DNA of 36,222 bases from Bacilli bacterium. Lineage in GTDB: Bacteria > Bacillota_I > Bacilli_A > RFN20 > CAG-826. The DNA lies in contig JAKSVG010000007.1 of the NCBI GenBank assembly GCA_024408105.1, positions 1-36,222 on the forward strand, written 5' to 3'. Made by a program: the position numbers and the translations under genes. Shown here piece after piece: positions 43-3,644 of this stretch (position 1 is its first letter; every line of letters starts with the position of its first letter). The notes under the pieces were generated by a model. That model was not told the origin of the DNA. It ran no database searches and saw only the letters and a program-made list of their open reading frames with translations.

Positions 43-118
43 TGGTGGACCTGACGGGGATCGAACCCGCTACCTCCTCCATGCCATGGAGGCGCTCTCC
101 CAGGTGAGCTACAGGCCC
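43..118 (-). tRNA. tRNA-Ala (anticodon GGC)
   Basis: A 76-nt cloverleaf read on the minus strand. The acceptor stem GGGCCTG pairs with CAGGTCC and contains the G3:U70 wobble that is the alanine identity element. The anticodon stem CCTCC/GGAGG encloses a loop with anticodon GGC, the T-arm carries GGTTCGATCCC, and the 3' CCA is encoded. It is the left boundary of an accessory islet. Confidence 0.95.
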
Positions 119-259: not shown

Positions 260-514
260 TTAACACTTAGCAGTTATTCGGTTATACCGAACAACTGAAT
301 TTTCATCCAATTCATGCTCTTCTAAAATATGTTTTATATGTTCAGAAATATTGCTTTTACTAGATTGATACAGTTCAGCAATATGATCTTGAGATAGCCA
401 AATGGAATAACACCATTGCTTGCTTTTCATTGATAAACAAATATTCAGTATTCGGATGCAATCCATCAAAAGATGGGCTCGACTGAAATGATACGCCATC
501 AAGAGAATACTCAC
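260..514 (-). pseudogene. RhuM-family N-terminal fragment
   Basis: An 84-codon frame opening with GTG. Only residues about 39-80 look like a real protein: WLSQDHIAELYQSS followed by SEHIKHILEE and ELDENSVVRYNR, which matches my recollection of the DNA-binding-like N-terminal block of RhuM-family proteins (intact members are several hundred residues). The first 38 residues do not resemble the family, and the frame stops right after the conserved block, so both ends appear lost. It lies next to tRNA-Ala and downstream of the acyltransferase on the same strand. RhuM proteins occur on islands and plasmids and their function is poorly known. I read this as a decayed remnant; a short functional DNA-binding protein is less likely. 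Confidence 0.6.
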
Positions 515-1738: not shown

Positions 1739-2359
1739 CTAATCAGAGATATTTGATGTATAATTTTGCCCTGTTTTTAATAAAGCCCAAACAATTCTAA
1801 GTATCTTTCTAGCAGTATGTGTTAATGCACATATTGCATGTTTGCCCTCATTCTTTTTCTTAGAATAATATTCTGCTAATTCAGTGGAATGAATTCTTGA
1901 TTTTTCAGCTGCTTGAAATAAAGCATATCTTAACAATGGTGATCCTCTTTTCCTAACACCACCTCGTTTTTCCACTGTCCCTGACTGATAAATTCTTACA
2001 TCTAATCCAGCAAACTTAATCAATTTATCAGGAGTAGGAAATTGAGAAATATCACCTATTTCACCTATAAGCAATCCTGCTAAACGATATCCAATTCCTG
2101 GAATAGTTATTAGGTTTGGGTATGTTTCATCTATTAATGGCTCTAATAACGAATTTAATTCATCATCTTTTTGTTTGATTATCCTTAATTCGTTTACTAA
2201 TTGAAAAATAATAGTTTCCGTTTCTTTAAACGCAACACCAATTGATGTTTTAGCTATTTCTCTTAGTAATGTAAGACTTAACTTCTGTCGAGAACTGTAA
2301 AAGAACAGTCTCTTTTGCTTTTGAGAGTGCAACTTTCTGTGCTTCTCCGCCAAAGACAT
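1739..2359 (-). pseudogene. truncated IS110-family transposase
   Basis: 206 codons carrying the C-terminal (transposase_20) part of an IS110-family recombinase: NLITIPGIGYRLAGLLIGEIGDIS at 82-105, FAGLD at 116-120, YQSG at 124-127 and KRGSPLLRYAL at 137-147. These elements normally encode about 300-450 residues, with an N-terminal RuvC-like DEDD domain before this part. That domain is absent: family-like sequence begins only near residue 27, the preceding basic stretch looks out of frame, and a stop lies three codons before the ATG. It cannot be an active recombinase as it stands. Intact IS110 elements recombine with a structured RNA encoded in a non-coding end, so the flanking DNA deserves attention, but no intact ends are visible. 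Confidence 0.85.
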
Positions 2360-2580: not shown

Positions 2581-2624
2581 AAAAAAAATAAATAATACAG
2601 CACTGAATTTTGTATCAATGCTGT
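2581..2624 (-). terminator. intrinsic terminator downstream of DUF3800 gene
   Basis: On the minus strand a 10-bp stem (2615-2624 with 2597-2606, one G-U pair) with an 8-nt loop is followed by a U-rich tail including eight consecutive Us. It lies about 140 nt after the DUF3800 stop and is the likely end of that transcript. Confidence 0.75.
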
Positions 2625-2640
2625 TGTTTACTTATGTGTT

Positions 2641-2688
2641 GTAATGAAGATGATAGTTTTTGAAGATGTGTGTAATGAAGATGATAGT
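2641..2688. repeat. two 17-bp direct repeats in the DUF3800 3' region
   Basis: GTAATGAAGATGATAGT occurs at 2641-2657 and 2672-2688, a 31-bp period, each copy preceded by ATGTGT. Both copies lie between the DUF3800 stop and its terminator, so they would be present in the mRNA. Two copies are too few for a CRISPR array. Confidence 0.6.
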
Positions 2689-2766
2689 ATCTTTATTAAT
2701 ATAATATTAATACTTTTTGCAACTTCGCTATTATATCCACCCTTGTGACGTCTCAGAAAAATATAA

Positions 2767-3447
2767 TTAAAATTTCCTAGTTTCAATAAACTTTATATAG
2801 TCCTTATAAATTTTGCGTTTCTTCCCAAAAAATAATTCATCGCTTCTTGTTAAAGTGCCATTACAGGCTCTATACCAAATTAATTCCATAAATCCAAGCA
2901 TATCAGCCGCTTGCATAAATGGTGAATCTTTTTGTTTTGTTGGAAGATATGAACCATTTTTGAAAACAAACTTTATAGAAGCAGAAAGAACTCCGCTTAA
3001 AAACGCTTGTCCACCATCATAATGAACCCTAATTGTAGAAAATTTATCGAAATAATCTTTGTGAGAATTTAATAAAGAAATTATAGAATCGGTTACTCGC
3101 TCACATAGTGATTTATCTTGATAAACTTTTTTATCAATAATTGCATTAAAAAACTGATATTTCGCTTTCATAGAAAAGAAAAACATACATCCAAAAAGAC
3201 TTTGTCTTTCTCCTACAATAAGTTCCTTATATGGACGTTCTTTTCTAACCAAGTTTCCTGTATGTACAAAATGATTACCACCATTTAATTTAGAAAGTTT
3301 CTCATTAAAGTTTTTAATAGCGCCATCATTAAGACTGCATGATTCAACACAAACAAACGAGACGATATAAAGTGGATTATCAGCACTATATACCGATTGA
3401 TCGCCTGTTTCATCAATGTAGATGTCTAATTCTCTTGCTAATTTCAT
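2767..3447 (-). CDS. DUF3800 protein (predicted RNase H-like fold)
   Basis: 226 residues. The N-terminus LDIYIDETGDQSVYS (Asp12, Glu13, Asp16) is the DUF3800 signature, HYDGGQ (Asp144) lies in the middle, and MQAADMLGF (Asp182) near the C-terminus supplies a late acidic residue. DUF3800 is grouped with RNase H-like nucleases, so a metal-dependent nuclease activity is plausible but unproven here. I start it at the ATG at 3447; the frame is open back to 3579 but runs through a structured RNA element and a terminator and lacks family similarity. There is no Shine-Dalgarno: the ATG follows the RNA hairpin's U-rich tail by about 10 nt. It lies in an islet with mobile-element remnants. A defence or selfish role is only a hypothesis. 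Confidence 0.85.
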   Translation of the reverse strand: MKLARELDIYIDETGDQSVYSADNPLYIVSFVCVESCSLNDGAIKNFNEKLSKLNGGNHFVHTGNLVRKERPYKELIVGERQSLFGCMFFFSMKAKYQFFNAIIDKKVYQDKSLCERVTDSIISLLNSHKDYFDKFSTIRVHYDGGQAFLSGVLSASIKFVFKNGSYLPTKQKDSPFMQAADMLGFMELIWYRACNGTLTRSDELFFGKKRKIYKDYIKFIETRKF

Positions 3448-3456
3448 AAGGTAAAT

Positions 3457-3514
3457 AAAAGCGGGAATTCTTCCCGCACTTCGATGGACCACCAGAGATC
3501 CAATCCCTGTGCCC
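3457..3514 (-). ncRNA. candidate ~58-nt structured RNA upstream of DUF3800 gene
   Basis: Read on the minus strand, a TATAAT box (3523-3518) would start transcription near GGGC at 3514-3511. The RNA can fold as: GCAC (3512-3509) with GTGC (3479-3476) closing a multiloop; AGGGAT/ATCTCT (3508-3503 with 3499-3494) with a 3-nt loop; a short UGG/CCA hairpin; then a strong GCGGGAA/TTCCCGC hairpin (3477-3471 with 3467-3461) followed by TTTTATTT. Two bases (3477, 3476) are claimed by both the closing stem and the last hairpin, so the folds compete. Structured RNAs named DUF3800 motifs have been reported near DUF3800 genes; whether this belongs to one was not tested. It may be a separate small RNA or a regulatory leader. 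Confidence 0.6.
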
Positions 3515-3517
3515 AAC

Positions 3518-3523
3518 ATTATA
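3518..3523 (-). promoter_or_regulatory. -10 box for the DUF3800-linked RNA
   Basis: A perfect TATAAT on the minus strand, 4-7 nt before the GGGC at which the candidate RNA begins. No good -35 is seen at 17 bp; TTGCGA lies 20 bp upstream, inside the preceding terminator. Confidence 0.45.
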
Positions 3524-3530
3524 TTAATAT

Positions 3531-3557
3531 AAAAATCCCCTATTCGCAAGAGGATTT
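3531..3557 (-). terminator. terminator of the polC-tRNA transcript
   Basis: On the minus strand AAATCCTCT (3557-3549) pairs with AGGGGATTT (3541-3533), nine pairs with one G-U, a 7-nt loop, and a run of Us. It lies 11 nt after the tRNA-Arg CCA end. Confidence 0.8.
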
Positions 3558-3567
3558 CAAATCTAAG

Positions 3568-3644
3568 TGGCGCGCTCAAGACGATTCGAACGTCCGACCC
3601 TCTCCTTAGGAGGGAGATGCTCTGTCCAGCTGAGCTATGAGCGC
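3568..3644 (-). tRNA. tRNA-Arg (anticodon CCT)
   Basis: A 77-nt cloverleaf on the minus strand: acceptor GCGCTCA/TGAGCGC, anticodon stem TCTCC/GGAGA with loop CTCCTAA (anticodon CCT, reads AGG), T-arm GGACGTTCGAATCGTCT, discriminator G, encoded CCA. It follows tRNA-Pro by 5 nt and is followed by a terminator. Confidence 0.95.

Follow-up and report, generated by a model that had tools for sequence, protein, structure and literature searches.

The founding paper on the structured RNAs associated with DUF3800 genes is reportedly that of Weinberg et al. from 2017, and we know of no function assigned to any of the DUF3800 RNA families. Among the closest described systems are two RNA-protein modules. 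In C. difficile AbiF-RCd22, a promoter and a structured RNA are followed by an intrinsic terminator and a protein gene that lacks its own promoter, and RCd22 lowers abiF expression in cis by termination and neutralizes AbiF in trans by direct binding (PMC12373285). In the type III toxin-antitoxin system ToxIN, the order is promoter, RNA, terminator hairpin and nuclease gene (PMC8860590). On the protein side, an RNase H fold was reported earlier for DUF3800 (PMC10910872; PMC12669027), and a survey of the RNase H superfamily does not name the family.

Here we analyze a locus of similar layout in a 36,222-nt stretch of DNA (hereafter the window; contig JAKSVG010000007.1) from a gut bacterium of the Bacilli. 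Its features are as follows:

3568..3644, minus strand: tRNA-Arg (cct), flanking the islet upstream (ARAGORN; position conserved in genus-mates)
3518..3523, minus strand: TATAAT, the -10 promoter box of the RNA gene (at most one mismatch in 49 of 51 copies)
3461..3515, minus strand: structured RNA body of 55 nt, assigned to DUF3800-XI as a divergent copy (fold, covariation, weak match to RF02975)
3515-3511/3489-3485, minus strand: helix P1 (UGGGC/GUCCA), enclosing P2
3509-3503/3499-3493, minus strand: helix P2, 7 bp, inside P1
3477-3471/3467-3461, minus strand: helix P3 (GCGGGAA/UUCCCGC), the hairpin of the intrinsic terminator
3453..3477, minus strand: intrinsic terminator, P3 plus the U-tract TTTTATTT (U-tract at 3460-3453)
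2767..3447, minus strand: DUF3800 gene, 226 aa (PF12686, 33.5 bits)
DUF3800 protein, residues D12, E13, D144 and D182: catalytic candidates, invariant in 14 homologues
1739..2359, minus strand: IS110-family transposase fragment (Transposase_20 domain only; sole such match in the genome)
43..118, minus strand: tRNA-Ala (ggc), bounding the 3.45-kb islet at its other end (ARAGORN; genus-mate comparison)

The RNA gene sits between tRNA-Arg (3644-3568) and the DUF3800 gene (3447-2767). Behind the -10 box, P1 and P2 form two stacked hairpins that are followed by the terminator hairpin, and five bases separate the U-tract from the DUF3800 ATG (3447). The order of parts is identical to that of AbiF-RCd22 (abiF RNA motif, RF03085). 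In contrast to the window module, AbiF-RCd22 has an unrelated protein fold, an RNA with two copies of the motif, a ribosome-binding site before abiF and a prophage location; its RNA-protein binding and toxicity are proven, whereas the window module is known from sequence. The succession of promoter, RNA, terminator and protein gene is also that of ToxIN, which differs in combining a tandem-repeat RNA with the endoribonuclease ToxN, where the window module has a single RNA unit and an RNase-HII-like protein. Tandem Repeats Finder detected no tandem repeats in 3400-3570, and a toxin of the ToxN family was not found, Pfam giving DUF3800 only and the closest fold being RNase HII.

The fold of the window RNA by itself modestly beats those of shuffled sequences (z -1.5 to -2.1), and the proof of structure was therefore taken from comparison. 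Most DUF3800 homologues in related genomes have the same RNA directly upstream. Of 279 genomes of the order, 51 had matches at E<=0.01 to a covariance model (R1) built from ten copies including that of the window, with up to five per genome and the weakest doubtful. In a phylum-wide sample, matches at E<=1e-4 were obtained in just 6 of 392 genomes, four belonging to the bacterium's own family and two to other parts of the class (one of the latter clearly a copy). Among 53 confident copies, 90.3% of pair cells hold standard pairs, and both sides of a pair have changed in 66 cells compared to 24.0 in shuffles, a value reached by 0 of 500 shuffles, although these counts lean towards the model with which the copies were aligned. 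P1, P2 and P3 all covary, the signal is lost once the pairing partner is slid, and RNAalifold recovers P1 and P3 unaided from the same alignment. Furthermore, the -10 box occurs with at most one mismatch in 49 of 51 copies, compared to 6% at random positions, while the -35 box is weakly conserved, and at least six T in the eight nucleotides after P3 are present in 49 of the 53 copies. The initial annotation had proposed a self-contained structured RNA gene paired with the DUF3800 gene, with a -10 box and a terminator-like hairpin followed by a U-tract, and had set covariation among homologues beforehand as its test; covariation, promoter box and terminator all bear this proposal out.

The same annotation had envisaged a two-state switch, in which GCAC (3512-3509) would pair with GTGC (3479-3476), two bases of this stem being common to P3. 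This complementarity is present in the window sequence but lacks conservation. Across the 53 copies the stem pairs in 67.3% of cases against 66.9% for shuffled columns, with covariation below that of shuffles, and the copies revealed no other conserved covarying run that competes with P1-P3 as an antiterminator. A riboswitch or two-state switch was rejected because no conserved alternative helix competes with the terminator.

By score, the window copy falls outside the Rfam family DUF3800-XI (17.1 bits with RF02975, below the curated cut-off of 37.8 bits). It is nonetheless, on the evidence of its features and relatives, a divergent member of this known family: we file it there because relatives found by R1 pass the cut-off (L071 with 43.6 bits; L066/L058, one locus, and L078 with 40.6 bits each) and because another copy from the genome of the window (G000:C15, 1-75, L002) aligns with the full RF02975 model at 30.7 bits. 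The kinship to published DUF3800 RNA motifs that had been suggested for this locus is thus borne by these relatives rather than by the window copy's own score. Like RF02975, whose consensus is UGGGC-hairpin-GGUCCACCGAAAGGCGGGGA..UCCCC with a GAAA-capped inner hairpin, the window RNA has P1 (UGGGC/GUCCA) around a hairpin, the conserved GCGGGA..UCCC tail and a position directly upstream of a DUF3800 gene; many of its relatives are orphans. In contrast to RF02975, P2 is longer (7 bp) in the window copy, and P3, unpaired in the Rfam model, covaries here and is the terminator. Orphan copies are described here for DUF3800-XI. The DUF3800-XI-like RNA of G000:C15 is cut by the contig end exactly where a DUF3800 gene would start.

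Some other DUF3800 genes are preceded by different structures. A second structured RNA lies before DUF3800 paralogues at L012:2155-2300(-), L013, L017, L033 and L042, and comprises a GUCAAAAGGGAAACCUCUUGAU hairpin, a GGG-GCC/GGUCCC stem and a GCGAGA/UCUCGC terminator. It has no Rfam match at E<=1 and is possibly an unlisted DUF3800 RNA motif; two such RNAs appear to stand in tandem at L017. A distant DUF3800 homologue of Collinsella (NZ_OY725717.1, L089:1424-1500) has a hairpin and a terminator-like hairpin directly before its start, for which no Rfam match was found.

With 13 nt between P3 and the ATG, a separate promoter would not fit, and DUF3800 mRNA is expected to arise mainly by read-through of P3. 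The start codon just after the terminator had been noted to lack a Shine-Dalgarno sequence, and this holds for the homologues: none of 12 DUF3800 starts has one, compared to 11 of 19 ATG genes in the window. P3 and the U-tract occupy the ribosome-binding position. GGGG-like stretches precede a later ATG in some copies of one genus, and the missing Shine-Dalgarno is therefore not universal. Given read-through of P3 and an occupied ribosome-binding position, the RNA is expected to be made in large excess over the DUF3800 protein.

The DUF3800 protein matches the PF12686 profile with 33.5 bits (curated cut-off 21), and H62 and R68 are invariant in the 14 homologues alongside the four acidic residues. 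An AlphaFold2 model computed with seven sequences (pLDDT 90.2) has RNase HII/H2 as its best structural neighbours (Z 9.6 over 166 residues, rmsd 3.7, for 1eke_B), and PIWI proteins are also among its neighbours. Residue 6 of the model aligns with residue 1 of 1eke_B; if the alignment is gapless, D12-E13 falls in register with what we take to be the catalytic Asp-Glu pair of RNase HII. Besides this shared fold and N-terminal pair, there are differences from RNase HII/H2: identity is 13%, the invariant motif with H62 and R68 is specific to DUF3800, and an RNA gene adjoins. The acidic, RNase H-like motifs recognized at the outset thus find a counterpart in the profile match, the model and the invariant residues, and we regard the protein as an RNase-HII-like candidate nuclease with an acidic tetrad, a shared fold not being equivalent to activity. 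The components of the module (structured RNA, promoter box, terminator, start without Shine-Dalgarno and acidic tetrad) are established at the level of sequence.

PADLOC and NCBIfam gave no meaningful match for the DUF3800 protein, nor did a sequence search for solved relatives, and a search of the genome contigs with a closer set of DUF3800 proteins returned six loci. An origin as a phage gene was rejected, the protein being without a match in phage records, viral contigs or PHROGs; the RNA pattern likewise had no match in viral contigs. The plasmid search yielded one distant Collinsella record and nothing else.

As first annotated, the module lies in an islet with mobile-element remnants. 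In eight genus-mates tRNA-Ala follows tRNA-Arg by 56-75 nt, that is, the site is empty, whereas 3.45 kb lie between them in the window and hold the module, an acyltransferase, a RhuM-like fragment and the IS110-family transposase fragment. The window protein shares 79% identity with a homologue from a genus other than its own, for which the identity of PolC is 53%, while DUF3800 homologues of the same genus are 37-41% identical and their PolC 62-67%; this reversal is clear evidence, at the sequence level, that the module was horizontally acquired. Distances among the RNAs are correlated with those among the proteins (r 0.63, 0 of 5000 permutations), indicating that the pair travels together. 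A same-strand tRNA or tmRNA gene stands at most 300 nt upstream of approximately 16 copies, a position in which we estimate that roughly 1% would be expected by chance. Cross-species similarity blocks begin at the promoter and end shortly after the DUF3800 stop, orphan copies often stop right after the terminator, and tandem copies occur at L062, L065, L066 and L067.

In two genus-mates (L112, L123) the same tRNA site, 3' of tRNA-Pro/tRNA-Arg, is occupied by other genes, among them RelB/DinJ-like antitoxin genes recognized by eye, which suggests a hotspot of insertion. Inspection by eye also showed that genes or gene fragments of the RhuM type (COG3943) recur near the RNAs (window 260-514(-), L044:2603-2713(-), L058/L066, L052 and L141), although Pfam gave no match for the window fragment. 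L044 in addition carries the COG3943 structured RNA RF02941 (95 bits), and such islands may collect several RNA-associated genes.

A DUF3800 frame or a long piece of one, in some cases broken, accompanies 28 of the 53 RNA copies; beside 8 there is a truncated gene or short remnant, a contig end interrupts one, and the other 16 are without a DUF3800 gene of their own. At L062, one orphan RNA stands directly before a complete module. In three nearly complete genomes, G055 (99% complete), G073 (91%) and G232 (94%), the RNA scores 63-76 bits and PF12686 detects no DUF3800 gene, with the proviso that these are drafts in which a copy could be missed. Another family of the class likewise has a consensus-like orphan, located behind a RhuM-like gene (G494, L141). 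The 16 gene-less copies retain P1 and P2, and pairs of P1 and P3 are present at 93.8% in orphans compared to 97.0% in linked copies. In four pairs of loci of which one is gene-less or holds a remnant, 2 of 207 sites differ in the RNA body, compared to 56 of 782 in the upstream flank (Fisher p 2e-4). These orphans may be recent gene losses, and the slow change of the RNA may predate the loss. Taken together, the comparisons establish that RNA and protein are inherited together, that the module has passed between genera and that RNAs persist where the gene is absent.

The orphan RNAs argue for an RNA that acts in trans. Among the options raised by the initial annotation, an antitoxin RNA fits best by analogy, and we give a probability of about 0.45 to an RNA that binds the nuclease in trans and restrains its activity, in the manner of AbiF-RCd22 and type III systems. 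The locus would then be a mobile two-part module made of a promoter-driven, terminator-ended RNA and a nuclease gene expressed by terminator read-through only. The RNA would accumulate in excess, bind the DUF3800 protein in trans and block its nuclease activity, while the terminator and the missing ribosome site would keep the nuclease scarce; orphan RNAs would be leftover inhibitors, possibly kept because they neutralize incoming copies. Such a module would resemble AbiF-RCd22 or a type III toxin-antitoxin system, except that its nuclease is unrelated and its RNA consists of one unit. Co-inheritance alone, however, accounts for the correlated RNA and protein distances, and the RNA does not show the tandem repeats of classical type III antitoxins. 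A broader version, in which DUF3800 RNAs at large are antitoxin-like inhibitors of RNase-HII-like nucleases, forming a widespread mobile class with tRNA-side sites and orphans as immunity, is offered more tentatively still.

We consider it unlikely that the RNA is instead a required cofactor through which the DUF3800 nuclease is guided to, or scaffolded on, nucleic-acid targets, like an OMEGA-type RNA-guided effector. Such a role would be in keeping with the joint travel of RNA and nuclease, with the PIWI proteins among the structural neighbours and with the several orphan RNAs per genome, which could serve one protein; moreover, there are DUF3800 proteins encoded next to Cas12, for which a role in interference or crRNA processing has been proposed (PMC10910872). 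However, the RNA has no variable unpaired segment, its variable P2 being a covarying and often GAAA-capped hairpin and its linkers being conserved, and a guide role, another of the options first raised, is therefore disfavoured. The RNA also occurs in three nearly complete genomes without any detected DUF3800 gene.

Similarly improbable is an RNA that acts as a cis leader only, that is, as an attenuator, possibly autoregulatory, which sets the level of DUF3800 mRNA. The terminator directly before a gene with neither a separate promoter nor a Shine-Dalgarno sequence is what such a leader would look like, and RCd22 does act in cis by termination (PMC12373285). In contrast, no conserved antiterminator is found, the helices are kept in gene-less copies, and the orphan L066/L058 passes the RF02975 cut-off, so that the autoregulatory leader of the initial annotation, in its purely cis version, fits poorly.

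Least probable of all is a cassette that is itself a small mobile element, with DUF3800 driving movement or homing, the RNA as part of the mobile unit and the orphans as non-autonomous copies: the block boundaries, tRNA-side and tandem copies, transfer between genera and the transposases and integrases among RNase H folds would suit it, but no terminal repeats or target-site duplication were identified, the data are also accounted for by transfer of larger islands, given the islet's other genes, and an exact junction of an empty site was not obtained, the genus-mates being too diverged for base-exact comparison at the tRNA-Arg/tRNA-Ala site and the presumed empty relative (G170) of the tRNA-Trp locus of G148 being rearranged upstream.

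To the DUF3800 RNAs this work adds order-wide covariation including P3, orphan RNAs, horizontal transfer, tRNA-side location and an RNase-HII-like protein model, observations that together make the function of these RNAs directly testable. With paired, broken and orphan copies and a nuclease with an identifiable active site, the lineage provides a natural test set, and the layout matches that of AbiF-RCd22, whose RNA neutralizes its protein. If the RNA restrains the nuclease here as well, a likely function could be assigned to several Rfam families in one step, a new type of nuclease would join the RNA-controlled modules, and the DUF3800 proteins that stand beside Cas12 and type VI loci would become easier to interpret.
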